Shown here in pieces: positions 3,704 through 48,410 of a stretch of 64,000 bases of DNA; the first letter of the stretch is position 1; each line of letters begins with the position of its first letter. The stretch spans positions 58,472-122,471 of the forward strand of contig JAEEXE010000004.1 in NCBI GenBank assembly GCA_016291375.1, given 5' to 3'. The stretch comes from Butyrivibrio sp. GTDB lineage: Bacteria; Bacillota; Clostridia; Lachnospirales; Lachnospiraceae. The position numbers were made by a program, and so were the translations under genes. The notes under the pieces are model-generated. The model was not told where the DNA came from. It searched no databases and worked only from the letters and a program-made list of their open reading frames with translations.

Positions 3704-5335
3704 TTATGCAGCGGGCTCGACTTCAGTATCCTCGCTCTGATCAGCGTTGTCCTGTTCGGATGTTTCTGCTGTTTCTTCAGTGCTTGCAGCTTCTGTAGAC
3801 TGTTCGTTTAGCTCGGAACTGTTATCGCTACTTGCCTCGCTTGTGAACTCTGTAGATTCGTCGCTTGTACTTGCTACAACAGAAGCATCTTCTACAGGCT
3901 CTGCAGTCTCTTCGTACTCAGTATCTTCCTCATCATACTCAAAGCCACGCTTGCCGAATCTGCTGTTGTTGTTTTTGCCGTTGTATTTACCATTGTTTTT
4001 GCCGCTGTTTCTTCCGGTGTGCTTGCCATCATTACCTCTGCCTGACTTGCCGGGATTGTCGGAGTTGCTCTTCTTATCTACTGCTGCATCTATAGCATTT
4101 AGAGTTTCAGTAGCACCATATTTTTCAAGAAAATCTTCAACGCTATTTTCACCTGCTTTGAAATCTTCATACTTATCATCTGCAATAAGATAGCTCTTTT
4201 CAATTTCTTTTTTGGAGTTGTCAATTATTGTTATTCCAATGTATTCACACCATATTTTACAAGACATGATAGGAGCCTTGTCCTTTTGGTTAACATCGTT
4301 TATCGCTGTATGTGAGTGACCGTCCAGCATGAGGTCTATTCCGTGAATGGTTTCTCCATTATTATTTGGATCGGCGATTTTGACCCTTTCCCATACGTCG
4401 GCACTTCGAGTGCCGTCGTTACCAATTGTACCGGGACCTTCACTTGGAGCATATTGATCTTCGAGCCCAAGATGTGAAAGACATATAACAATATCGGCGG
4501 GTTTTTCTAATTTTTTTGTGGTGCTACTTTTATCATCATCGAATTTTAGTCCGGTTGGTTCTTCTCCGATTCCGCGTAAGTATTCAACTTCTCTTTTTGC
4601 ACATTCAATCATTTTATTATCTGTAAGGAAGGTGTATTTTTTTCCTGCGGTATAAACAGCAGCTTCCTTTGTGTCGAGCCCAAAAAAGCCGATCCTTAAT
4701 GCATTTTCACCTTCTCCAACAGTTCTTATGACGTGAGGAGTGAAAGCAAAATTGCCTTCGCTATCAAAAATATTTGAGTTGATGAGCTTATTACCTGCTT
4801 CTTCAACTAACTTATCAAAATCCTTTTTTTGGTTATTAAATTCATGATTGCCCCATGTGATGTAATCATATCCGGCTGCATTCATTATCTTTAATGCCTC
4901 AAGACCGTGGGAATCATCTATGTTTCCTTCTTTTTTGTAATCAGCTGGAAACTCTTCTTTATTGTTGAAATACTTACTGTCTTTGTCTTTTCCGAAATCA
5001 CCGGAATCAACGAGGATTACTTCAGCTGCTTTAAGATCGTTTTTTATATAATTTTTTAGAGCTGCAATATGGGCAAAGTCCTGAATTGCTCCGTGAGAAT
5101 CGTTTGTTGATAATATGATGGTCTTTCCACTGAGGTCGTGTTTATAGTCATTGGATAAGTCCTCTATTGTTATCACATTTTTGTAATCACCTTCATCTGT
5201 TATTTGAGAGCGTTCATAAGATACTATTTCTTCATTTCCTGCTGCATTAGCGTTTAGTGTATTTACGCTCGATAGGGATACCAATCCTGCCATTGCAAGT
5301 AACAGCAAGCTTTTAAAAGCGAATTTTTTCTTCAA
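3704..5335 (-). CDS. Secreted 5'-nucleotidase-like metallophosphatase without 5'-nucleotidase C-terminal domain, acidic Ser/Thr/Glu tail
   Basis: Signal peptide; ILSTNDSHG, LVDSGDF, WGNHEF, CLSHLG and DGHSHT motifs; low-complexity C-terminus; TTG start after AGGAGGTG. Confidence 0.8.
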   Translation of the reverse strand: MKKKFAFKSLLLLAMAGLVSLSSVNTLNANAAGNEEIVSYERSQITDEGDYKNVITIEDLSNDYKHDLSGKTIILSTNDSHGAIQDFAHIAALKNYIKNDLKAAEVILVDSGDFGKDKDSKYFNNKEEFPADYKKEGNIDDSHGLEALKIMNAAGYDYITWGNHEFNNQKKDFDKLVEEAGNKLINSNIFDSEGNFAFTPHVIRTVGEGENALRIGFFGLDTKEAAVYTAGKKYTFLTDNKMIECAKREVEYLRGIGEEPTGLKFDDDKSSTTKKLEKPADIVICLSHLGLEDQYAPSEGPGTIGNDGTRSADVWERVKIADPNNNGETIHGIDLMLDGHSHTAINDVNQKDKAPIMSCKIWCEYIGITIIDNSKKEIEKSYLIADDKYEDFKAGENSVEDFLEKYGATETLNAIDAAVDKKSNSDNPGKSGRGNDGKHTGRNSGKNNGKYNGKNNNSRFGKRGFEYDEEDTEYEETAEPVEDASVVASTSDESTEFTSEASSDNSSELNEQSTEAASTEETAETSEQDNADQSEDTEVEPAA

Positions 5336-5399: not shown

Positions 5400-7142
5400 T
5401 CATCCGCCGTAACCGAATTTGAAGTTATATCTGTGGTGCCTCTGGTGATGATGGTCATCGTCTGAATCATTGGAATCATCAATGGACTCAGCGGTAGAAT
5501 CATTGTCGGAAGAAGTTTCTTGAGAAGATTCTTCTACACTTTTGATGTCTTCAGAAGTCGCGGTTCCGGCAGCATCTTCATTCTCGAGGTTTGCACTACT
5601 GGATGCATTGGCTGATTCAACATCATTCTCAGAGAGACTGGCCTCGATAGAAGCAGAGTCATCAGCCTCATCAATGAAATCATGTTTTGTTTTAGATGAA
5701 GTCTTGGAAGAGCCGTGCTTATCTGAATAACCCTTTTCTGTGTAGTCTGTATTTGGATCGTAATTCTCTATTTTCTTTCTTGCATCTTCAGCACTCATTT
5801 CTTTTTCAGAAACGCGTATTACGTAATCAATATAATTGGTAATCTTTGTGTCTTCTCCGATTTCGCTGTAATGGTCTTCCGGAATTACAAAGTTATCTTC
5901 AATCTTATATTTGCCGCTTTCATCCTTGCCGATTATTGTAACACCAATATTTCTAAGCCATATTCCGCATGACTGAACTTTGACATTATCAAAATACTCA
6001 CTACCTGTCATAGTTGTATGAGAGTGTCCGTCAAGTAGAATATCAATATCATCTACGTCAGCAAATAAGTCGACACTTCTGATTCCGTTTGAATAAAGAG
6101 AATCGAAAGCATTTGGGTCTGTTTGAACGTCTTTGCTTTCTTCGACTTTATTCCCTATACTACCGTCCGGTTTAATAAAAAAGAAAGCATCATCTTCATC
6201 CGATTTATCTTTATTAGATTTATCTTTATTAGATTTATTATTGGATTTACCTTTGTTTGATCTATCCCTATTGGATTTATGTTGATGTGATTTATTTTTA
6301 TTGGAATCACCTTTATTAGAATCTTTAAAAGCCCAATTACCGGGTTCATTATCAACTCCGAGATGAGTGAGACCAATTATTATATCTGCACCCTCTTTTC
6401 CTTTTAAATCCGAAACCTGCGTCTGGGCAATATCATGTAGGGCGTATCCGCTTTTATCAACTTTGTAATTAAAATTTGGATACCATGCATGATTCTCAAG
6501 TGTGTCAAGACCAAAGAAACCAATATTTAACCCTAGATCTTTAAAATCCGCAACTGCATAGGACTTGAGTTCACGAGAGTCCCCGGTTTTTTTGAGATTT
6601 GCGTCGACAATTGTATATTTGATTTCATCAATTATTTCCTTTGCATTAGCTTTACCTTTTTCGAACTCATGGTTACCTAAACATCCGTAGTCATAGCCTA
6701 TGGCGTTCATGATCTTAACAGGTGCAATGCCTTCTGTATTAGTTGCACATAAACCGGCGTCTTTACTCTTTTTTTTGCCAGTGATTTCAGTATAGTTGTC
6801 AACTGAATCTTTATCTGTGCTAAAATCTCCTGAGTCTACGAGTAGAACTGTGGCATGATTTTCTTCCAGAATATTTCTAAGCTGCGAAACATAGGTTAGA
6901 TCTTTAACAGCTCCATGAATGTCGTTAGTAGAAAGAATAACCACCTTTCCACTCATATCCTTATTTAAAAATGCAGACAATCCGGAATTGTTTCCATCTG
7001 AATATTCCGTACAATCTTTTGTAACCGTATTAAAGGATACGACTTCGCCTCCTGCAGCAAAAGCTCCAAGGTTTGCAGAGCAGAAGAGTGTTGCTGCTGT
7101 CACAACTGACAACATGCCTTTGACAGCAATTTTGTTTTTCAA
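5400..7142 (-). CDS. Secreted 5'-nucleotidase-like metallophosphatase with K/S/N-rich insertion and acidic/His-rich tail
   Basis: Signal peptide; STNDIHG, DSGDFSTD, GNHEFEKG, GLTHLG, DGHSHT; NKGDSNKNKSHQHKSNRDRSNKGKSN insertion; TTG start. Confidence 0.8.
   Translation of the reverse strand: MKNKIAVKGMLSVVTAATLFCSANLGAFAAGGEVVSFNTVTKDCTEYSDGNNSGLSAFLNKDMSGKVVILSTNDIHGAVKDLTYVSQLRNILEENHATVLLVDSGDFSTDKDSVDNYTEITGKKKSKDAGLCATNTEGIAPVKIMNAIGYDYGCLGNHEFEKGKANAKEIIDEIKYTIVDANLKKTGDSRELKSYAVADFKDLGLNIGFFGLDTLENHAWYPNFNYKVDKSGYALHDIAQTQVSDLKGKEGADIIIGLTHLGVDNEPGNWAFKDSNKGDSNKNKSHQHKSNRDRSNKGKSNNKSNKDKSNKDKSDEDDAFFFIKPDGSIGNKVEESKDVQTDPNAFDSLYSNGIRSVDLFADVDDIDILLDGHSHTTMTGSEYFDNVKVQSCGIWLRNIGVTIIGKDESGKYKIEDNFVIPEDHYSEIGEDTKITNYIDYVIRVSEKEMSAEDARKKIENYDPNTDYTEKGYSDKHGSSKTSSKTKHDFIDEADDSASIEASLSENDVESANASSSANLENEDAAGTATSEDIKSVEESSQETSSDNDSTAESIDDSNDSDDDHHHQRHHRYNFKFGYGG
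6185..6325 (-). repeat. Degenerate minisatellite inside nucleotidase-like CDS
   Basis: Repeated TTTATCTTTATTAGA-like units encoding K-S/D-N/K repeats. Confidence 0.65.
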
Positions 7143-7537: not shown

Positions 7538-7903
7538 CATATCTCTTTCCTTTAATAAGCGCTAAGTGTGTATGGGGAACACTCGTACACCGTAACAAAA
7601 TCATTTGAACATGTCAAATAAAGGTTACATGAAAAATCTGAATTATTTTTTTGGAGACAAGGTATTTACTGACTAAAAATTGAAATGTGATTTTTTTTTG
7701 AACATTTCATGTGAATAGATATCGGAAACTGTTAATAAAATATGAGTTTCCGACTGCAAAAAATATTCTTTGCAATATATTAAAAAAGATGTAGCTTTTT
7801 ATAAAATTAATGGTAATATAGAAAGGTAATATTAATAGCGCCAAGTATTGTTATAAGAGGGGCAAATACATGGTGGAACACTAAGTAACGCAAAGGAGAG
7901 CGT

Positions 7904-9496
7904 ATGAGAAGGAAAGAATTTATTTCAAAAAAATTAGCAGTAATTTTAATGACAGCAACTATGGTGATTACGCCAATTGTGGGAAGCATTGCAATGCCGA
8001 TGAATTCATTTGCGGCAGGGGATATACTTGCGCAGTATGAGTATGTTTACGGTGGCGAATGGGTAGAGGATAATCCGGAAGGAGAATATGTTGATTTTAA
8101 CAGACGTGATTATATTATGAGAACCAATGAAGGCGAAATAAGCGCTAACACTGGACTGGTAATTCATAATGCCGAAACTGGAACGATTGAATATAATGCT
8201 GGTATTGGAACAGTGATTTTGAATGATGGAAATGTGACAGAGAGCAGTTTCATAGTTGCGTACAACAGTCCTACTGGTACAATTGATTTGAATACTGATG
8301 TAGTATATGACAATGATGGTTATATTGGCACTAATGAAGGTGTTGTAAATAATGGTTCCGGAATTGTAGGGGAAAATTGTGAATCTGCTTTGGTTAAAGG
8401 AAGTCCCTCTACTACAAAGGATAGAGATGCGAGGAATGATGATTCTGTTGGGATAATTAATGTTAATAACGGAGGGACTGTTCAGAATGGAATCGGAGAA
8501 AATGACTCAATCACAATAAAAGAATTTAATTATGGCAATGTAATTACTGATACATTGGATAAAGAAACTGGTGTTTCCAATAAAGGAACAGTTCATATCA
8601 TTGATAATTATGATAGTAAAGAGTTTAAAGAGAATAATCTTATTCTTGTAGATAATCAGTATCATTCAGTAACGTTTGATAATCTCGAAAATGCGACGGC
8701 TCAGTATATGAATTTTGACAAAAATCATTTAGGTGCTACTTTTGAGAAGACTGCAGTCAACAAAGAGGATATTCCTTTAGATGGTGTCATTACACTTAAA
8801 GCTAACGATGGCTATAAGATTACTGATGATGGTCAGATGAGCGGAGAGGTTGGAGCTCTTTCTTATAGTCTTGGTAAGAATGATGATGGCTCATATGCGG
8901 TCAATATCAATTCACTTCATGGAAATGTCGCACTTACTCCTGAAATGCTTCACCTCATTATTTCAGAACTTACAGGTGATGAGACTCCTACAGAAGTTCA
9001 GATTGGCGACACTGTAGTAAAACTTGATGAACTCAAGGATGATGTTGTTGTTATAAGTGGCGGCTCTTCATCAGATAACAATGGCGATTCATCAGCACCT
9101 ACAGAGTCTTCTGCACCTGCAGGTTACAATCTTTCTGATGAGACTATCAAAGCTATTACAGATCAGGTTCAGAAGCAGGTTGCTGCAAACGGAAATGATA
9201 TTGCAACTCTTGAAGTTATCGACATCTACTTTGGCGATAAGATTGACATGACACCTGATGTTATCAAGTACCTCTGCGAGAAGGTACCTGTAGCTAAGAG
9301 ATGCCACTTCGATTACAAGGATCAGGAACACATTCTGTTCATTCCTGCTTTTGACCTTAATGCACCTGCATACGCAGAAGGGCTTGAGACTTTGGCAAAA
9401 GAGCCTGCTCATACAGCAGGATTCCTTAGAATCAAAGATATCTTTGTTAAGCTTGGATTTGCTACAAAGGTTGTAGAAGAGGAAGCAGCTGAGTAA
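7904..9496 (+). CDS. Secreted Asn-rich heptad-repeat (predicted beta-solenoid) protein, paralog A
   Basis: Signal peptide MRRKEFISKKLAVILMTATMVITPIVG...FAA; NxGx[IV]xx repeats; shared beta-like module and C-terminal DIYFGDKIDMTPDVIKYLCE domain. Confidence 0.8.
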   Translation: MRRKEFISKKLAVILMTATMVITPIVGSIAMPMNSFAAGDILAQYEYVYGGEWVEDNPEGEYVDFNRRDYIMRTNEGEISANTGLVIHNAETGTIEYNAGIGTVILNDGNVTESSFIVAYNSPTGTIDLNTDVVYDNDGYIGTNEGVVNNGSGIVGENCESALVKGSPSTTKDRDARNDDSVGIINVNNGGTVQNGIGENDSITIKEFNYGNVITDTLDKETGVSNKGTVHIIDNYDSKEFKENNLILVDNQYHSVTFDNLENATAQYMNFDKNHLGATFEKTAVNKEDIPLDGVITLKANDGYKITDDGQMSGEVGALSYSLGKNDDGSYAVNINSLHGNVALTPEMLHLIISELTGDETPTEVQIGDTVVKLDELKDDVVVISGGSSSDNNGDSSAPTESSAPAGYNLSDETIKAITDQVQKQVAANGNDIATLEVIDIYFGDKIDMTPDVIKYLCEKVPVAKRCHFDYKDQEHILFIPAFDLNAPAYAEGLETLAKEPAHTAGFLRIKDIFVKLGFATKVVEEEAAE

Positions 9497-9512
9497 TAAC
9501 TGATAAATTAAT

Positions 9513-9552
9513 AGAGAGAATACTGGGGAACACCGGTATTCTCTCTTTTTTT
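9513..9552 (+). terminator. Rho-independent terminator
   Basis: AGAGAGAATACTGG-ggaaca-CCGGTATTCTCTCT followed by T-run. Confidence 0.85.
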
Positions 9553-9698
9553 ATGTGGAGGGAAAATCTCTGAATTTCCTATCCTCTGTTTTTATCATGC
9601 CGGATTTGTATATCAGTGAAGGCTGAGAACATACCTTGTTTATTATGGTCTGTTTTTTGACCTAATAAAAATATAAACAAACATAAGGAGAGAGAAAG

Positions 9699-10682
9699 AT
9701 GAGAAACAAATTTTTACCAAAAAAAGTGGCAGCTGTAGTATTGTCAACATCGGTTGTGCTTATGCCGATTACAGCATTCGCAGCAGAGACGGTTCCTGAT
9801 AACCCGGAGGATGGCTATGTGGAATTCTTGTCACAAAACATGGTCAACAATCGAGGCAACATCAATAAGAATGATGGGTGCGTTGAAAATAACTACGGAT
9901 TCCTTGAATGGAATTATGCAGAGGAATGGGGAGTAGAAAACAATTACGGAACCGTTGACTATAACGAAATGGGTATACATAACAACTACGGAGAGGTAAA
10001 TGTCAACTATCATAATGCACTTGTGTTTAACATAAGCGGAAATGTGCTTGATAACAATGAACTAGCCTCTGTAGTCGGTGGCGCTGATTATGATGAGGAT
10101 GGCAACATGGAAAGGGGCTGCGGAACTGTTACAAATAATAACGGTGGAAGACTCTATGCCGGCTATAATCCTGATGATGAGCTAACTGTAACTAATTATT
10201 ATTATGGTGAGGTCCTTGGAAACTATGATAATCCGATGAATGATGAAGGTATGGGATGCGGTAAGATTCACATCCTCAATGACTTCTCAGAGGAAGGCGT
10301 GTATAAGATTGCTGAGGATGATGGCGTTGAAGACAGAAGCTTTATAACGGTGGATAAGCATTACCACTTTGTGGATGTTAAAGATGCTGATGGTGTAGAT
10401 GTTTCATATTCCAATTTTGTTCACAGCGATTCGGATAAAAAAGAATATGCACTTGTTGAAGAAAACAATGAACCTGTTGAGGTTAAAGCTTCCATCACGA
10501 TCAAGGCTAAGCACGGTTATAAACTTTCAAATACCGGAGAAAAGAGTGGTGAAACAGATAAGCTTTCTTACACACTTGATAAACACCACGACGGTTCATA
10601 TACCGTGAATATTACATCACTTAGCGGAAATGCTGAGGTGTCGCTTGATGACCTTCATCTTAGCGTTTGCAAAAAGCATTGA
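9699..10682 (+). CDS. Secreted Asn-rich heptad-repeat protein, paralog B (short, lacks C-terminal domain)
   Basis: Signal peptide MRNKFLPKKVAAVVLSTSVVLMPITAFAAE; NNYGTVDYN-type repeats; NYYYGEV and GYKLSNTGEKSGETDKLSYTLDKHHDGSYTVNITSLSGN module. Confidence 0.78.
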   Translation: MRNKFLPKKVAAVVLSTSVVLMPITAFAAETVPDNPEDGYVEFLSQNMVNNRGNINKNDGCVENNYGFLEWNYAEEWGVENNYGTVDYNEMGIHNNYGEVNVNYHNALVFNISGNVLDNNELASVVGGADYDEDGNMERGCGTVTNNNGGRLYAGYNPDDELTVTNYYYGEVLGNYDNPMNDEGMGCGKIHILNDFSEEGVYKIAEDDGVEDRSFITVDKHYHFVDVKDADGVDVSYSNFVHSDSDKKEYALVEENNEPVEVKASITIKAKHGYKLSNTGEKSGETDKLSYTLDKHHDGSYTVNITSLSGNAEVSLDDLHLSVCKKH

Positions 10683-10757
10683 TCAAAGGTTAATGCTCTG
10701 ATTTAAATCATCATTATTCTTATGAGGGGGATAAAAACGCTTAAAAAGGAGATAAAA

Positions 10758-13532
10758 ATGAGAAGAAAGAAGTTTGTTTCAAAAAAGTTGGCAGTAGTTT
10801 TATTATCTGTATCCATGGTGCTTTCACCAATGCTTGGAGTAGTGGCGGCGCCGGTAAATGTATATGCCGCAGAGCAGAGCGCTGATAACGAGGTGGAAGA
10901 GGCTGTAGAAGCGATAGCGGAGGAAGGATCAGGAAAGACTTCGGAAGCAGCAGAGGATGTATCTGAAGATACACAGGAACCATCTTCTACGGTTTCAACA
11001 AGTGGTTTTATTGAAAACAATGAAGAAAAGATTGATACAAATTATTCCACTATCGGAGTTAATAATGGATTGATACTTGATAACAGAGGACTTGTTTATG
11101 AAAATAAAGCTGAGATTATCAATAACAATGATAATGGAGTGATCACTGATAACAATAATAAAATTATTAGCAATAATGGTGTTGTGTCTAATAATTATTA
11201 TGAGATTACTGACAATAATGGGACTGTTCTTGGAAACAGGAATACTATTGTCAACAGCAATGGCTATGTAAAGACAAATGACAAGAATGCCAAAATAACA
11301 GAGAATAACGGGCATGTTTTATGCAATAGCGGCGATGTAGATAATAATTCTTTCATAGTTCAGAATAATGATAATTATGTGAACAACAATTCGCATTTGA
11401 TAATTAACAATAACGGACACGTTGAAACTAATAGCGGGAATATTGTAAATAATTACGGCAAAACCTATATTGTTGAAGAAGGCGCAGTACAGAATAATTA
11501 CACAGAAGGTATTGCTTATGGTAGTTCTTTGAATCCTGATGATGAGCGCGTTAGCAACGTCGTTGTTGCGCAAAACAGAGGCGGAACAGTAGTAAGTGGA
11601 GTGAAGCCGGGAGATCTTTTGACTATTAGAAATTATTATTATGGAGATCTCCAAAATGTTGCGAAAGCCCCCGGTAAGGAAATTGCTTGCAATGGTAAGA
11701 TTCAGATTACCAATAAGTTTGGAGAAAAAGGAGATACCGACAAGGACTTTGTTACTGTAGAGAATCAGTACAACAGTGTTGAAGTATATGATGCAGACAA
11801 CACAGATGTTACATTCGATGGATTTGTGCGTGATGATGTTGACTATACTCAGTATATACAGACAGCTAAAAACGGAGAACCTGTTGAGATTACCGGTACG
11901 ATTACACTTAAGGCAAAAGAGGGCTATTCACTTTCTGATAATGGCGAGCTTTCGGGAAGTGTGGATAAGCTTGTTTATGGTCTTAGTAAGAATGAGGATG
12001 GCTCTTACACTGTAAGCATTTCTTCTCTTACGGGAGATGTTGCAATCTCACCTGAGATGATTAATCTTATTGTTTCTGAAATTAGCGATGATCAGACCGA
12101 AGTAAAAGATGTTGTGGTTGAAAACGGAGAAGCTTCGGAAAACATTGAGATCTCTGATGTTGGAGGAGATGGCCCCGGCGCAGAAGATAATGCAGTTGCT
12201 AAGGGGAATCTTCCTAATAACCAAAAGGGCGTGAGAATGGATAAAGTCGCTGACGGTGAAGTTATGGACATTAATTTGGGCTACGTAGACAGGAACGAAG
12301 GCACGATCAATAACAACGCTGACAATAGCGCGATCGTACAGAATAACTACGGAACCATAAACGCCAACAATGCTATTGTGCCTTTCAACTTTGGCAAAAT
12401 AAACGATAATAATGCGCTTGTTTTTAATCCAACAGGAACGGTTGTAAATAATAACGCCGGTGGACAGGTTATAGGTGGTAGAAACGGATACGATACTGAC
12501 GGAGAGGGCAACGGAGACAATCACATTATCAATAACCTCGGCGGAGAGGTATATAGTGGAAGAATGCCTGATAATAACTGCGTTATTACCAATTTCTATT
12601 CCGGAGAAATAAAGGAATATGATGAGCTTAACCCTGAACAAAAGACTGATGATCCGCTTGGACACGGAACTATTTGCGTTAAAAACAGTTATAGCGATGA
12701 AGATTTTACGGAAAGAGATTATCTGACTGTAGAAAAGCAGTTCCATTCTGTGGAGATAAAAGACGCTGAAAATATTGATGTAAGCTATTACGGATTTGAT
12801 CAGAGTGATGTTGATAATAAGTGGTATACACAGACTAAGGCAAATTCAGAGCCTGTCGAGATAAAAGGAACTATTACGCTTAAGGCTGGTGAGGGCTATG
12901 AGCTTTCGGATGACGGACGGCACATCGGACAAACGGATAAAGTTACTTACAGCATTAGTAAAAACGAGGATGGATCATATACTGTAGGCATTTATTCTCT
13001 TGCCGGAAATGTTTCTCTCACACCACAGATGCTTCATCTTAAGGTGACAGAAGCTAAGAATGAATGTGAGGAAGGCAAAGCCGGTGATAATTCCGCTAAC
13101 GGCGTTTCTACAGGCACGCAATCTGATACAATCTCTGTTCCGGGAGTTGAAAATTCAGGCGCAGGCATGGTATACGGCATTGGCGACGGCCCGAGGGTAT
13201 ATGTCCCATACACAACTAAGACAGTAGCTCCCAGAGGCGGAAGTGATGCTCATTCATATAAAATAGTCGAGTTTGATTTTGGCGATAACATCAATCTCAC
13301 AGCACAAGTTGTAAAGACTCTTTGCGAAGGACCTCAGCTTGCTAAGAGATGCCTATTTAACTATGAGGGAAAACAATATGTTATGAATGTGCCTGTTGTT
13401 GATGCTACATCTTCAGAGTATACGAAGGCAATTGATGAACTGGAAAAAGAGTATGGCCAGGCTGCCGGATTTATGAGAATCACGAAAATGTTTGAGAATG
13501 TAGGTTTTACGGTTTCTGAAGTTGCACAATAA
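10758..13532 (+). CDS. Secreted Asn-rich heptad-repeat protein, paralog C, with internal duplication
   Basis: Signal peptide MRRKKFVSKKLAVVLLSVSM; two consecutive [heptad repeats + beta-like module] units, then the shared C-terminal domain. ATG at 10758 after AAAAAGGAG. Confidence 0.8.
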   Translation: MRRKKFVSKKLAVVLLSVSMVLSPMLGVVAAPVNVYAAEQSADNEVEEAVEAIAEEGSGKTSEAAEDVSEDTQEPSSTVSTSGFIENNEEKIDTNYSTIGVNNGLILDNRGLVYENKAEIINNNDNGVITDNNNKIISNNGVVSNNYYEITDNNGTVLGNRNTIVNSNGYVKTNDKNAKITENNGHVLCNSGDVDNNSFIVQNNDNYVNNNSHLIINNNGHVETNSGNIVNNYGKTYIVEEGAVQNNYTEGIAYGSSLNPDDERVSNVVVAQNRGGTVVSGVKPGDLLTIRNYYYGDLQNVAKAPGKEIACNGKIQITNKFGEKGDTDKDFVTVENQYNSVEVYDADNTDVTFDGFVRDDVDYTQYIQTAKNGEPVEITGTITLKAKEGYSLSDNGELSGSVDKLVYGLSKNEDGSYTVSISSLTGDVAISPEMINLIVSEISDDQTEVKDVVVENGEASENIEISDVGGDGPGAEDNAVAKGNLPNNQKGVRMDKVADGEVMDINLGYVDRNEGTINNNADNSAIVQNNYGTINANNAIVPFNFGKINDNNALVFNPTGTVVNNNAGGQVIGGRNGYDTDGEGNGDNHIINNLGGEVYSGRMPDNNCVITNFYSGEIKEYDELNPEQKTDDPLGHGTICVKNSYSDEDFTERDYLTVEKQFHSVEIKDAENIDVSYYGFDQSDVDNKWYTQTKANSEPVEIKGTITLKAGEGYELSDDGRHIGQTDKVTYSISKNEDGSYTVGIYSLAGNVSLTPQMLHLKVTEAKNECEEGKAGDNSANGVSTGTQSDTISVPGVENSGAGMVYGIGDGPRVYVPYTTKTVAPRGGSDAHSYKIVEFDFGDNINLTAQVVKTLCEGPQLAKRCLFNYEGKQYVMNVPVVDATSSEYTKAIDELEKEYGQAAGFMRITKMFENVGFTVSEVAQ

Positions 13533-13559
13533 AAATGATATAGTTCATTGGCTGTAATT

Positions 13560-13700
13560 ATGAGCGGAGAAGTTGCTCCCGGTTTTAATTCAAAAGATCT
13601 TTTGACCGTAACCAACTATTATTATGGCGATATATCCAAGAGCAGCGATGAGCAGAAGGGTAAGATCAGTATCGTCAACGATTTCTCTGAAGAGAAGTGA
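13560..13700 (+). pseudogene. Truncated remnant of the Asn-heptad protein family
   Basis: MSGEVAPGFNSKDLLTVTNYYYGDISKSSDEQKGKISIVNDFSEEK* matches the mid-protein SGVKPGDLLTIRNYYYGDLQN...GKIQITNKFGE segment of the intact paralogs. Confidence 0.75.
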
Positions 13701-13811
13701 ATGATTTAAGACTTACTTTGAAAGCGCTGCATTGTAGATAGAAAGCAGGCAGGGTGAAAAAGCTTGGAATTCCTGCCTATAATCGGGGAAAATGGAAAAA
13801 TAGGCAGGTAA

Positions 13812-13851
13812 AAGAGCATGTACCGCGGAGTTTGCAGTACATGCTCTTTTT
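13812..13851 (+). terminator. Rho-independent terminator
   Basis: AGAGCATGTAC...GTACATGCTCT followed by TTTTT. Confidence 0.7.
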
Positions 13852-13972
13852 AAAGTGCGCCTAGCGGCGCACGTTTAGAACTTGAATTATTTAGCCTTAA
13901 GTTCTTGTCCTACCCTGATATGCAACACATGTTGCATTTTGTTAAGAAGAGTTAAAATGTATTTTGACCATA

Positions 13973-14013
13973 TAATCCCTAGAAAACACTGATATTTTCT
14001 AGGGATTATTTTT
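13973..14013 (+). terminator. Rho-independent terminator-like hairpin
   Basis: AATCCCTAGAAAA-cactgata-TTTTCTAGGGATT then ATTTTT. Confidence 0.7.
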
Positions 14014-14185
14014 GCTGCTTATTATAAAATGAACTTCAAATAAAATAAATATAAAAATATTATTAAAAAATAGTTGCATTATTTAATTATTGTGTTATTA
14101 TATAAAAAGATTATTAACAAACGCCAAACATCTTTGTTTACAAAGGGGGATAGATGCGCGGCTCAACGCAAGTAAAGGAGAAAGT

Positions 14186-15979
14186 ATGAGAAGAAGTAAG
14201 ATTGTTTCAAAAAAGTTAGCAGTAGTTTTGTTGTCAGCATCTTTGGGGATTACACCTGTTGTCACGTCAGTTGCAATGCCGGTAACTGTATTCGCAGCTG
14301 AACAGCCAGATAATCAAGAAGGTGAAGCGATTCTTGAGCTGAATGCAAACGACGATATGGAGAACAACAATGGAAAAATAGTCACCAATAACGGTTCTAT
14401 TGAGAACAATAATGGTGATGTAGAGGTTAATAATGGGTTTATAGACCTCAATAACGGTACAGTGGAAAAAAACACCAGCTTTATCACAGATAATTCAGAA
14501 ACAGGCATAGTAAAAACAAATGAAAAAGAGGTCGCAAATAATAAGGGCACTGTAGAAACAAATAATCATTGGATTGTCAATAACAATGGTTCTGTTGGTG
14601 AGAATGATCAGCATATAGAGAACAATAGCGGTATCGTTGATGATAATAATGGTTCTATTAGCGTGAATACGGAAGAAGGAAAGGTTGTTAATAACAATCA
14701 GACCATTACACAGAATGATGGTGAAGTTAAGAATAATAAAATGGTAGTTACAATTAACGATGGCCAGATAGACTCTAATTACGGTATTGTGGCAAAAAAC
14801 AATGAATGCGTAATTGAGAATTATGGCCAGGTATCACTTTTGGATGGATATGTAACTTATAATAATGAAGATGGTACTGTTTATGGAAGTGAGAATAATC
14901 CCGGTAGTACTGAAATCGGAAATGGAAAGATCTTTTACAATGTCGGTGGAACAGTAATCAGCGGATACAAACAGGAAGACACAATAGAGATTGAAAACTA
15001 CTATTATGGAGATTTAAATAACAGCGTATATGCCGGTGGAGAAGATATTCTTTGTGACGGACAGATCATCATTAAGAATAGCTTTGGCGAAGAAGAAGAT
15101 ACTGCCAAGGACTTTGTTACAGTTGAAAAGCAGTTTAACCTTATCGAAGTAGTAGATGCTGAAAATGTAGATGTAACATATAATAATTTCTCGCAGGATG
15201 ACATATATGGTTATTGGTTTGTTCAGACCAAAGAGAATTCTCAGCCTGTTGAAATTACAGGAACTATCAACCTTAAGGCTAAGGAAGGTTATAAACTTTC
15301 TGATAACGGACAGCTTGAAGGTGAAGTTGGAAAACTTGTATATGGACTTAGCAGAAATGAAGATGGTTCTTATACAGTAAATATCGCCTCACTTACAGGA
15401 AATATAGGCATTACTCCTGAGATGCTCAATCTTATTGTTTCCGAGATCAGCAAGGAGCACGGAGAAGTTACAAATGTAGTTGTTAATAACGCTACATCAT
15501 CAGGCGACAGCTCTGACAAAAAGGATAGCTCAGATAAAAAAGATTCTTCTGATAACAGCCGGGAAAATTCAGGTGAGAGCGCAGCACCTTCAACTGTAAA
15601 CTTTAATGACGTTGTAATTAAGGATATTGCAGATCAGGTTCAGGCACAGATGAACAAAGCCGGACAGGATGCAGCTTCACTTGAGGTTGTAGACATTTAC
15701 TTTAAGGATAAGATTGCTATGTCACCTAATATGATCAAGTATCTTTGCGAGAGTATTCCTGTAGCAAAGAGATGCCACTTTGATTATCAGGGAAAAGAGC
15801 ATGTGTTGTTTATTCCCGCTTTTGATGTGACAGCTCCTGCATATGCAGAAGGCCTTAAAACACTTGAAAATGAACCTTCTAGGACAGCAGGATTCTATAG
15901 GATCAAAGATATTTTCAAGGATCTGAAGTTTGATGCAAAGATTGTAGAAACACCCGTTGAGGAAACTACACAGGATTGA
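14186..15979 (+). CDS. Secreted Asn-rich heptad-repeat protein, paralog D
   Basis: Signal peptide MRRSKIVSKKLAVVLLSASLG; about 20 consecutive NxGx[IV]xx units; beta-like module; C-terminal VVDIYFKDKIAMSPNMIKYLCESIPVAKRCHFDY domain. ATG at 14186 after AAAGGAG. Confidence 0.82.
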   Translation: MRRSKIVSKKLAVVLLSASLGITPVVTSVAMPVTVFAAEQPDNQEGEAILELNANDDMENNNGKIVTNNGSIENNNGDVEVNNGFIDLNNGTVEKNTSFITDNSETGIVKTNEKEVANNKGTVETNNHWIVNNNGSVGENDQHIENNSGIVDDNNGSISVNTEEGKVVNNNQTITQNDGEVKNNKMVVTINDGQIDSNYGIVAKNNECVIENYGQVSLLDGYVTYNNEDGTVYGSENNPGSTEIGNGKIFYNVGGTVISGYKQEDTIEIENYYYGDLNNSVYAGGEDILCDGQIIIKNSFGEEEDTAKDFVTVEKQFNLIEVVDAENVDVTYNNFSQDDIYGYWFVQTKENSQPVEITGTINLKAKEGYKLSDNGQLEGEVGKLVYGLSRNEDGSYTVNIASLTGNIGITPEMLNLIVSEISKEHGEVTNVVVNNATSSGDSSDKKDSSDKKDSSDNSRENSGESAAPSTVNFNDVVIKDIADQVQAQMNKAGQDAASLEVVDIYFKDKIAMSPNMIKYLCESIPVAKRCHFDYQGKEHVLFIPAFDVTAPAYAEGLKTLENEPSRTAGFYRIKDIFKDLKFDAKIVETPVEETTQD

Positions 15980-16282: not shown

Positions 16283-18385
16283 TTACTTTGTCTTTAATTC
16301 CTGACCTACAAGGATATTGTTGGCATCCTTGATAACGTCTTTGTTTAGTTCGTAGAGGTCTTTCCACTTATTTCCGTCACCGTATACTGCAGCTGCAATC
16401 TTCCAGAGATTGTCGCCGGATACTACAACGTAAGTGTCAGCTGAAGGCTGTGTCTCAGTGCTTGCAGCGTCAGAAGCAGGAGAGGTCTCGGAAGCAGCCT
16501 TTGCCTCTTCCTTTGAAGTTTCGGCGGCGTTAGCCTCAGCCTTTGCTTCTTCCTTTGCGGCTTCAGCAGCAGTAGCCTCGGCTTTAGTCTCCTCAGCCTT
16601 AGCTTCTTCAGCAGTGGGAGCCTCGGCTTTAGCCTCGGCGGGAGCAGCAGCCTGAGTGCTTTCTCCGGAACCGCTTTGAACAGCTGCCTTAGCATCTGCT
16701 ATTGTGGCAGCGTCGGTTTCTGAGGTGATGATAGTCTGATCGCCACGAGTCTTGCCATACTGAGCGGAAGTTACGTTTCCGCCAAGAACTTCTTTTACAT
16801 AGTCCATAACAGCCTCATCCATGACGATACCGGTATCGAACTGTGAACTTGCATTTGCAAAAGCATAGTATGTATCGCCGCCGGCTGCACAGAAGTTGTT
16901 GGTAACAACTGCATAAGTGTCATTCATGTTAAATGGCTGATCGTTAATGCTCTGGATAGTCACACGACTAATCTTGGAAGGTGAGTAGTAGGTTGACTTG
17001 GGGTAAGCAGCACCCTGAGCATAAGGCTTGGTTGTATCAAGTATGAACTTGATTCCTGATGTCTGAGGATATCCTCCGATTGCTTCGGGTGTTGAGAATG
17101 TAGAAGCTTCAAGTGCTTCAAGAAGCTCTGAACCCTTTACATATACAACAGCGATTGTGTTTCCGAAAGGAAGAACTGTGTTAAGGTCAGCCTTTGTAAC
17201 ATCGCCTGCCTTAATGGTAGCTCTGATACCACCGCCGTTAGTAATTGCAACCACATGATCCTTATCTACTGTTACTGCACCGTCGGTTTTAAGAACACTC
17301 CATTTAAGTGCATCTGTAATAAGATCACCAAGGTTGGTTTCCTGTGTTCTGTTTCCGGGAGCCTTGTTTCCGTCAAGGAGAACTTCGCTCTTTGCGAATT
17401 TAACATTGTACTCAGCATCAACTTTTTTGATGATCTCTGTAGCTGCAGTATTTGATGTAACTTCAGGCTGAAGTCCATCAAGGGAGATAAGATACTTATC
17501 TTCAATCTTCTTGGAAGCATCGTCGATCACAACAACACCAATGTTCTCAATCTTGGTTCCTGTAGAAAGAACGGGCTCATTCTTGGCACCCTTAGTCATT
17601 ACTGTGTGAGAGTGGCCATCAAGAATGAGATCAATGCCCTTGGTCTTGCCGTACATATCTACGCTTCGGTGTCCGTCGGGAGCTGACTCCTCGTCAACGC
17701 CGAGATGGGCAAGGCATACTACAAGATCTGCGCCTTGAGATTTAAGAGCGTCTGTCTGTTTCTGAGCACATTTATAGATATCAGACTTAGAAAGGAATGA
17801 AATTCCCTGAATGAGACCGGGATTAACCTTGGTCTGAGTTTCGGGAGTCTCCATTCCAAAGAAACCTAACTTAAGTCCTGACTTTGTTACATACATGTAG
17901 TTGGGATCAAGGATTGGATTGCCGTTTCCATCGAGGACATCGGCGCAGAGAACCTTGAACTTGGCCTGTGCAAGATTCGATCTAAGCTGATCATAGCCAA
18001 AATCAAATTCATGATTTCCAAGTGTTACGATATCATAACCTGCGGCATTCATCATTGTGATGGCAGATAATCCTTTAGAAGTACTTACATAAGGAGTTCC
18101 CTGGCTGAAGTCACCTGAATCAACAAGGATAACCTCGGCGCCCCTTCCTGTAAGATTTTGCTTAACTGAAGCAACATATGCGTATTTACCGATCGCACCG
18201 TGTACATCATTGGTCTGAAGGATAACGGTCTTGCCGGTAAGATCCGCAGGAATGTCTGCGATTGTTTTGACATCAGCGGGAGCATCATATGCAAAGGTCA
18301 CTGACGCAGGGATAATGATTGTAAAGAAAAGCGCCATTGCCAAAGCAGATGCGATAAGCTTTGTCATTTTAGTAAAACTCTTCAT
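16283..18385 (-). CDS. Secreted 5'-nucleotidase / 2',3'-cyclic-phosphodiesterase family protein with C-terminal LysM domain
   Basis: Full 5'-nucleotidase architecture (LQTNDVHGAIG, VDSGDFSQG, GNHEFDFG, DGHSHTVM, ITNGGGIRATIKAGDVT), Ala/Glu-rich linker, LysM motif YVVVSGDNLWKIAAAVYGDGNKWKDLYELN. Confidence 0.9.
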   Translation of the reverse strand: MKSFTKMTKLIASALAMALFFTIIIPASVTFAYDAPADVKTIADIPADLTGKTVILQTNDVHGAIGKYAYVASVKQNLTGRGAEVILVDSGDFSQGTPYVSTSKGLSAITMMNAAGYDIVTLGNHEFDFGYDQLRSNLAQAKFKVLCADVLDGNGNPILDPNYMYVTKSGLKLGFFGMETPETQTKVNPGLIQGISFLSKSDIYKCAQKQTDALKSQGADLVVCLAHLGVDEESAPDGHRSVDMYGKTKGIDLILDGHSHTVMTKGAKNEPVLSTGTKIENIGVVVIDDASKKIEDKYLISLDGLQPEVTSNTAATEIIKKVDAEYNVKFAKSEVLLDGNKAPGNRTQETNLGDLITDALKWSVLKTDGAVTVDKDHVVAITNGGGIRATIKAGDVTKADLNTVLPFGNTIAVVYVKGSELLEALEASTFSTPEAIGGYPQTSGIKFILDTTKPYAQGAAYPKSTYYSPSKISRVTIQSINDQPFNMNDTYAVVTNNFCAAGGDTYYAFANASSQFDTGIVMDEAVMDYVKEVLGGNVTSAQYGKTRGDQTIITSETDAATIADAKAAVQSGSGESTQAAAPAEAKAEAPTAEEAKAEETKAEATAAEAAKEEAKAEANAAETSKEEAKAASETSPASDAASTETQPSADTYVVVSGDNLWKIAAAVYGDGNKWKDLYELNKDVIKDANNILVGQELKTK

Positions 18386-18448
18386 ACTAAACCTCCTTAT
18401 TATTATGAATATAAACATAATTATACTCCATATCTCATAAGATTATGC

Positions 18449-48040: not shown

Positions 48041-48150
48041 AAAAAATCGCTCCGCTTTGGATGCGCATCGACGCGTAAGGAAATATTGCATAAATGCAAC
48101 CGCGTCTCGCGCGAGAATGTTGCAAGCAACATTCTATGTATGATATAGGT
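48041..48150. repeat. Structured dispersed intergenic element, copy 2
   Basis: Matches 3505-3612; hairpins TTGCA/TGCAA, GACGCG/CGCGTC and AGAATGTTGC-aa-GCAACATTCT. Confidence 0.7.
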
Positions 48151-48220
48151 GTCGAAAAGCAAGCGCGGCTCAGCTTTGAATGCTTGCATTCGAAAGCTGA
48201 GCCACGTTTGCTTTAACGAC
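48151..48220. repeat. Long inverted repeat (~27-bp core stem, 2-nt loop)
   Basis: GTCGAAAAGCAAGCGCGGCTCAGCTTTGAATGC-tt-GCATTCGAAAGCTGAGCCACGTTTGCTTTAACGAC. Confidence 0.8.
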
Positions 48221-48225
48221 CCTAA

Positions 48226-48280
48226 CAAACATGAGGAAAAAAGCTGTTTGCGCAGCAAATCAGCGATTTCCGAATGTTTG
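48226..48280. repeat. Inverted repeat hairpin
   Basis: CAAACAT...ATGTTTG outer arms; inner GCTG-TTTGC-gca-GCAAA-t-CAGC. Confidence 0.6.
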
Positions 48281-48410
48281 TAGAATTGCGAGAATGGCGT
48301 AAGCCATGGAGCAATTCGTATATCATACAATATAAACATCAAAATTATGCGTTAAGTGATAGAATTGCGAGAATGGCGCAAGCCATGGAGCAATTAGTAT
48401 ATCATACAAT
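48281..48410. repeat. Tandem duplicated hairpin element (51 bp x2, 79-bp period)
   Basis: TAGAATTGCGAGAATGGCG[t/c]AAGCCATGGAGCAATT[c/a]GTATATCATACAAT at 48281-48331 and 48360-48410; nested stems AATTGC/GCAATT and ATGGC/GCCAT. Confidence 0.85.

Follow-up and report, generated by a model that had tools for sequence, protein, structure and literature searches.

Secreted asparagine-heptad proteins of Butyrivibrio with a predicted 14-residue beta-roll and a shared C-terminal domain

A 64,000-nucleotide stretch of a rumen-type Butyrivibrio genome (GenBank assembly GCA_016291375.1, contig JAEEXE010000004.1, positions 58,472 to 122,471; hereafter the window) carries four adjacent genes, paralogs A, B, C and D, for secreted proteins with asparagine heptads. 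The locus raises the questions of whether these heptads form a regular solenoid and what such proteins do. A sequence-only reading of the window had described the four genes as encoding putative beta-solenoid proteins with a possible adhesin, matrix or surface-fibre role; its observation is confirmed in part and its interpretation partly supported. On balance, we slightly favor a new family of Sec-secreted, acidic solenoid proteins of the surface or matrix, in which a shared C-terminal domain (CTD) serves as the attachment or assembly module. The CTD, the 14-residue period of the repeat and a remnant of a further paralog had escaped the sequence-only reading.

Four paralogous secreted proteins

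Open reading frames place A to D side by side on the + strand as had been described, and BLAST shows them to be mutually homologous. Each begins with a Sec signal peptide that ends in an A-x-A cleavage site, and the four signal peptides are closely alike. The mature proteins are acidic (pI 4.2-4.3). An LPxTG-like motif is absent from A to D, as is any hydrophobic stretch beyond the signal peptide; thus they lack both this motif and the C-terminal transmembrane segment of sortase-anchored surface proteins, and anchors of the sortase, LysM or transmembrane kind were not found in them. Both the likeness of the signal peptides and the missing LPxTG-like anchor had been noted from the sequence.

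Paralog A (530 amino acids, 7904-9496) consists of the signal peptide, degenerate heptads, a beta module, a linker and the CTD, and is 53-69% identical to orthologs at the same locus in three relatives. Paralog B (327 amino acids, 9699-10682; 76-77% identical to its orthologs) has a short degenerate heptad region, a beta module and no CTD. Paralog C (924 amino acids, 10758-13532), whose start was shifted from 10722 to the ATG at 10758 on a signal-peptide match, contains two solenoid-plus-module copies followed by a linker and the CTD, and is 58-59% identical to full-length orthologs. Paralog D (597 amino acids, 14186-15979), the clearest heptad protein, is best placed at the ATG at 14186 in preference to a TTG at 14090; it is 53-54% identical to its ortholog in Butyrivibrio sp. 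X503.

A heptad repeat with a period of 14 residues

All four paralogs had been credited with long heptad runs, which holds for C and D and fails for A and B. C has 25 and D 22 occurrences of the pattern N...[ILVMF]..N, whereas 1000 composition shuffles never gave more than 9 and 8, respectively. The counts in A and B are 6 and 7 (shuffle maximum of 5 each), and their longest exact 7-step chain is three units, not above shuffles. Autocorrelation of asparagine and of hydrophobic residues peaks at lags 7, 14 and 21, clearly so in C and D only. Heptad region 1 of C (10998-11451, + strand) contains uninterrupted runs of 6, 7 and 7 units, and the shorter region 2 (12258-12449, + strand) has a run of 6. 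The core Ile/Val spacing in D is mostly seven and occasionally nine residues, and the phase survives these +2 insertions, as had been claimed.

Unit statistics were taken from 121 units in ten family members picked to limit redundancy. The consensus is N-x-G-x-[VI]-x-x, with Asn at position 1 in 88%, Gly at position 3 in 70% and Val or Ile at position 5 in 96% of units; units were selected on N1 or G3 plus a hydrophobic residue at position 5, so these frequencies are not independent evidence. The unselected positions 2, 4, 6 and 7 are free of this selection, and their identity alternates at 0.10, 0.27, 0.10 and 0.21 for unit distances 1-4; none of 5000 shuffles of unit order was as extreme in this period-two alternation. 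Agreement at Gly-3 alternates likewise (0.46, 0.71, 0.44 and 0.69). The effect is strongest in two relatives (L044 and L052) and of the same kind, if weaker, in D. The real period of the repeat is therefore most likely 14 residues, with two non-equivalent heptads per coil as in a two-faced roll; this coil period is visible in the sequence independently of any structural model. The natural repeats are not perfect copies and differ from one ortholog to the next, and the Val/Ile core is retained nonetheless. Gly, Asn, Asp, Ser and Thr make up 55% of the heptad regions, versus 20% for Ala, Lys, Leu, Arg, Glu, Gln and Met.

Predicted structure of paralog D

AlphaFold2 was run on mature D with an alignment of 27 sequences. 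The D model has a mean predicted local distance difference test (pLDDT) score of 82 and a predicted template modelling (pTM) score of 0.63, and the five models had mean pLDDT values of 80-82. The heptad region (14330-14779, + strand; model positions 12-161 of the mature protein) is predicted as a solenoid in which strands of 4-5 residues, about 21 in all, recur once per seven residues, at a pLDDT of about 97 (mostly 92-98). Short strands at regular repeat spacing, the mark of a beta-solenoid, are thus present in the prediction. The turn falls at unit positions 2-3, often Asn-Gly, and Asn-1 recurs at the same place in each coil; stacking of Asn-1 would form asparagine ladders, consistent with a 14-residue roll. 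A beta-roll fold of the heptad region is likely. The sequence-only reading had predicted such a solenoid and held that predicted disorder would speak against it; the strands in the model and the separate 14-residue periodicity both agree with the prediction.

Behind the solenoid lies a beta-rich middle module (14837-15445, + strand; model positions 181-383, pLDDT about 71-96) with the pattern GTITLKAxxGYxLSDxG...KNEDGSYTVxIxSLTGNV, which is conserved across all cluster paralogs. A Ser/Asp/Lys linker (15455-15601, + strand; model positions 387-435) is predicted to be disordered (pLDDT about 30) and leads into an alpha/beta domain, the CTD, at model positions 438-549. A Foldseek search of the PDB with the whole chain of D, blurred by its several domains, gave nothing at E <= 0.001. 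A relation to viral fibres was rejected after a search of BFVD with D, which likewise returned no match at that threshold.

A C-terminal domain common to different solenoids

The CTD ends three of the four paralogs and is absent from B. It spans 9125-9493 in A (alignments A2, A4 and A5; profile match E 4e-56), 13254-13529 in C (profile match E 1e-43) and 15599-15976 in D, all on the + strand. In D it is predicted as helix-strand-helix-strand-strand-helix-helix-strand, and when modelled alone it reaches a pLDDT of 87 and a pTM of 0.77. The CTD was rejected as a known fold, with no Foldseek match in the PDB at E <= 0.001 (best TM-score 0.32). Defining a solenoid-CTD family by a signal peptide, a repeat, a linker and a match to CTD profile A2 or A4 brings in A, C and D.

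Ten heptad proteins of Lachnospiraceae encoded outside this locus likewise have the CTD, or a variant form, at their C-terminus (L044, L047, L052, L053, L054, L057, L059, L060, L061 and L085, of which L044 and L047 are orthologs). The two variants, of AGFxRIxxIF type and GYCGF type, align with a profile-profile probability of 92 over 74 columns. The domain is also found at the end of proteins with another repeat, the right-handed beta-helix of the PF18889 Beta_helix_3 family: L070 (PF18889 match E 4e-31), whose CTD is of the GYCGF variant, and L045, which falls below the PF18889 cut-off. Like the heptad proteins, both are secreted and consist of a solenoid, a linker and the CTD; unlike them, they carry a GGG-type repeat in place of the asparagine heptad. 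Three other repeat proteins (L055, L056 and L058) end in the CTD as well. The occurrence of one CTD on different solenoid types is the strongest new element of this analysis.

As a separate observation, L061 (5486-6928), which has no Pfam match, and L049 (4676-5080) share a tail behind the CTD, HNTVMG(A/T)E(I/V)GMAALSAGN...SS(F/Y)A(S/Q)MGGGS(M/L)R(Q/E)ETG.

Comparison with known beta-rolls

Among solved structures, the 14-residue rolls that come closest in principle are those of trimeric autotransporter LPBR heads and of the ice-binding protein LpAFP of the grass Lolium perenne, and a functional resemblance to them is plausible. LPBR heads also have 14 residues per layer and asparagine sites seven apart, which in BpaC lie at positions 3 and 10 and form hydrogen-bonded rows (PMC9543794). 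Beta-branched core residues are likewise a feature of the YadA head (PMC9543794), and LPBR proteins are secreted adhesins. The heptad consensus, however, lacks the LPBR logo with its invariant Gly at position 8; there is no outer-membrane barrel as in trimeric autotransporters, and the host family is Gram-positive. The YadA head, stalk and anchor families of Pfam matched none of the four window proteins or 27 homologs.

LpAFP is a beta-roll of NxVxG units with two core asparagine rows and 14-15 residues per turn (PMC5744647), similar to the proteins described here in its coil length and in having Asn, Val and Gly in a heptad-like repeat. The cyclic order, however, is Asn-Gly-Val here and Asn-Val-Gly in LpAFP, so the NxVxG pattern does not apply. 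LpAFP is also eukaryotic and short, with no counterpart to its ice-related context here, and PDB sequence searches gave no match to it. For the features compared, A to D do not qualify as members of the LPBR or the LpAFP family. The first match in both Foldseek (E 0.08) and profile searches (E 0.11), the A-domain of the adhesin Awp1 from Candida glabrata (7o9q), was non-significant, with a TM-score of 0.11-0.17, and no relation is claimed.

Proposed organization and competing explanations

In the favored reading, the N-terminal part of C, D and their relatives elsewhere would be a two-sided beta-roll in which each heptad contributes one strand of 4-5 residues and a tight Asn-x-Gly-type turn, two heptads completing one 14-residue coil. 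Val or Ile at position 5 would fill the core, and the asparagine of each unit would stack along the turns. The resulting rigid rod would be followed by the beta module, the disordered linker and the small alpha/beta CTD. The roll, together with the middle module, would be the exposed rod or ligand-contacting part, and the CTD would attach or assemble the protein, being retained while the solenoid is exchanged in Lachnospiraceae; copies would diversify by duplication and in-frame recombination. Taken by itself, a surface or matrix role for the family has roughly even chances. An adhesin, matrix or surface-fibre role of the heptad proteins, as had been suggested, is plausible but conjectural, and the location, ligand and role of the CTD are likewise conjectural. 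If the reading is correct, the repeat is an unnamed solenoid with a readable code of one Asn, one Gly and one Val or Ile per seven residues and 14 residues per coil, and the CTD is an orphan domain that recurs on secreted solenoids of differing kinds, in a family that is important in gut and rumen and of whose surface structures few are understood.

Several points weigh against this reading. The CTD has no fold match that hints at a binding target, and its absence from B indicates that it is dispensable for some members; the weak repeats of A and B indicate the same for the roll. Moreover, AlphaFold2 produces confident yet unrealistic solenoids for artificial perfect repeats (PMC11795689). This last caution is eased because the repeats of D are natural and imperfect, have a Val/Ile core, keep their phase and show a 14-residue alternation that does not depend on the model.

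The alternative that survives best, although rather unlikely, is that the proteins are freely secreted and soluble, released or glycan-binding, and act off the cell, with the CTD as a binding head instead of an anchor. The lack of any known anchor in A to D and of any match between the CTD and a wall-binding family fits this explanation; however, the presence of the CTD on structurally different solenoids is more easily explained by a shared structural or attaching task than by a single specific binding activity. A bolder form of the favored reading would make the CTD a new sortase-independent attachment or assembly module of Lachnospiraceae, a portable one that displays beta-solenoids of different structure as passengers, Asn-heptad rolls as well as PF18889 helices, and is expressed as a co-regulated set. 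We consider it unlikely in this full form.

It is improbable that A to D work with the secreted nucleotidases that flank them, for instance by scaffolding the enzymes or capturing substrate when extracellular nucleotides and phosphate are scavenged. In all four carrier genomes the cluster does lie between a LysM 5'-nucleotidase with hslO and two catalytic-half metallophosphatases with aguB. The locus of three further genomes (G399, G464 and G418), however, comprises hslO, two or three secreted metallophosphatases and aguB but lacks any solenoid gene, and the enzymes therefore do not need the solenoid proteins. Heptad-CTD genes elsewhere have unrelated neighbors, and the opposed strands preclude a common operon.

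A similarly small chance is given to the heptads being a low-complexity, largely disordered spacer whose predicted solenoid is a repeat artefact. The AlphaFold2 bias described above and the polar, asparagine-rich composition speak for a spacer. Against it, the imperfect units diverge between orthologs and still have the Val/Ile core and the period-14 alternation, their phase is kept across +2 insertions, and AlphaFold2 did leave some sequence of the same chain unordered, the linker being of low confidence.

The sharpest rival, because the Ile/Val and Asn spacing fits positions a and d exactly (I5 lies three residues ahead of the following N1), is a trimeric helical stalk of the N@d-type coiled coil, a motif described for trimeric autotransporter stalks (cited in PMC9543794) and echoed by the PDB sequences nearest to the heptad profile, designed helical proteins with asparagine heptads (best E 0.0024, no single stretch significant); it is nevertheless very improbable, since Gly-3 in most units and the Gly/Asn/Asp/Ser/Thr-rich composition do not suit helix formation, the strict period-14 alternation of units is not expected of a coiled coil, and AlphaFold2 places strands throughout the heptad region.

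Family searches and distribution

The claim that no named family applies stands: A to D have no convincing match in Pfam, NCBIfam or PHROG, and PDB sequence, profile and fold searches with the family were equally without a convincing match. The 27 homologs have no Pfam match and, among them, a single stray PHROG match. A mobile or phage origin was rejected on the latter result and on the lack of any match to the cluster in phage and plasmid records. Literature searches on Lachnospiraceae solenoids and on surface proteins or nucleotidases of Butyrivibrio yielded nothing of relevance.

The CTD profile matches five of 397 sampled family genomes and seven of 79 genus genomes (four strongly, three weakly); in a class-wide sample of 291 it matches only the window's own genome, with one weak partial match in the same family. 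The heptad profile matches eight of the 397 family genomes, and in 349 phylum genomes only the genus itself, plus a 66-codon open reading frame taken as chance. A match in G235, likewise rejected as chance, is a brief run inside a long protein of several domains encoded by a very large open frame; a match in G064 also sits in a very large open frame. Both the repeat and the CTD thus look sparse and restricted to Lachnospiraceae in the genomes sampled.

Neighboring genes and history of the locus

Upstream of A, on the opposite strand, lie two secreted metallophosphatases outside the family (3704-5335, with NCBIfam partial matches, and 5400-7142, with NCBIfam partial matches to 5'-nucleotidase and cyclic-nucleotide families). 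Each consists of the catalytic half only: both retain the metal-site motifs, lack the 5'-nucleotidase C-terminal domain and have long low-complexity tails. Downstream of D, also on the - strand, is a full 5'-nucleotidase with a LysM domain (16283-18418; Pfam Metallophos, 5_nucleotid_C and LysM). Tandem arrays of such secreted metallophosphatases beside hslO are conserved in Butyrivibrio. The oppositely oriented cluster therefore sits within an array that G399, G464 and G418 carry without it, owing to insertion here or to loss elsewhere.

Gene content also varies among the carriers. Butyrivibrio sp. X503 (L019, L042) has five paralogs in the order A, A-prime, B, C, D, and two other genomes (G441, L046; G465, L048) have A, A-prime, B and C. 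The window retains the remnant of one more paralog, a stretch of some 46 codons (MSGEVAPGFNSKDLLTVTNYYYGD...NDFSEEK; ~13557-13698, + strand) that is devoid of a signal peptide. It is 51% identical over 53 columns to residues 160-212 of A-prime of X503, the paralog it most resembles, yet it lies at a different place. C of G465 (L048:11724-13496) lacks one solenoid-module through an in-frame loss whose joint falls within the repeated KNEDGSYTV segment, which points to recombination between such segments. The set of paralogs is thus rearranging, as this in-frame loss and the displaced A-prime-like remnant show.

Terminator-like hairpins, both consensus matches only, follow A (9513-9546, + strand; 14 pairs and a T run) and lie between the remnant and D (13972-14009, + strand). 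From this hairpin scan, the cluster is probably transcribed as three separate units, A, B-C and D.

Upstream elements and minor observations

Across the X503 genome, even with one mismatch tolerated, the 16-mer TCACTTAGGAATTTTG has just two copies, one upstream of the heptad gene L044 (G423:C12:265151) and one upstream of the beta-helix gene L045 (G423:C14:222445), which are unlinked. In G441 it has one exact copy, upstream of the heptad gene L047 (C39:57083), and one copy with one mismatch, upstream of the beta-helix gene L070 (C4:125369), and is thus common to heptad and PF18889 genes in both genomes. Because TCACTTAGGAATTTTG precedes unlinked CTD genes in X503 and G441, it suggests that the CTD-protein genes form a co-regulated set, of which it may be an operator or promoter element. 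The motif is absent from the window's genome and does not concern the window's own cluster.

The leader of A (7780-7825) is conserved across three genomes (also L042 and L046) as TTAAAAAAGATGTAGCTTTTTATAAAATTAATGGTAATATA, with the inverted repeat AAAAAG...CTTTTT, a possible operator. A riboswitch upstream of A, considered for the cyclic di-GMP-like look of the leader, was rejected, as Rfam gave no family near the cluster at the gathering threshold and no credible match at a permissive one.

Farther along the window, a Clostridiales-1 RNA (RF01699) is found at 48141-48325 (102.7 bits). Immediately upstream of the window (L071; G000:C43:48000-58471) runs a series of lipoprotein-like open reading frames with similar N-termini (TACAG, TACAE, TACGN and LAGCA), possibly another tandem cluster of paralogs.

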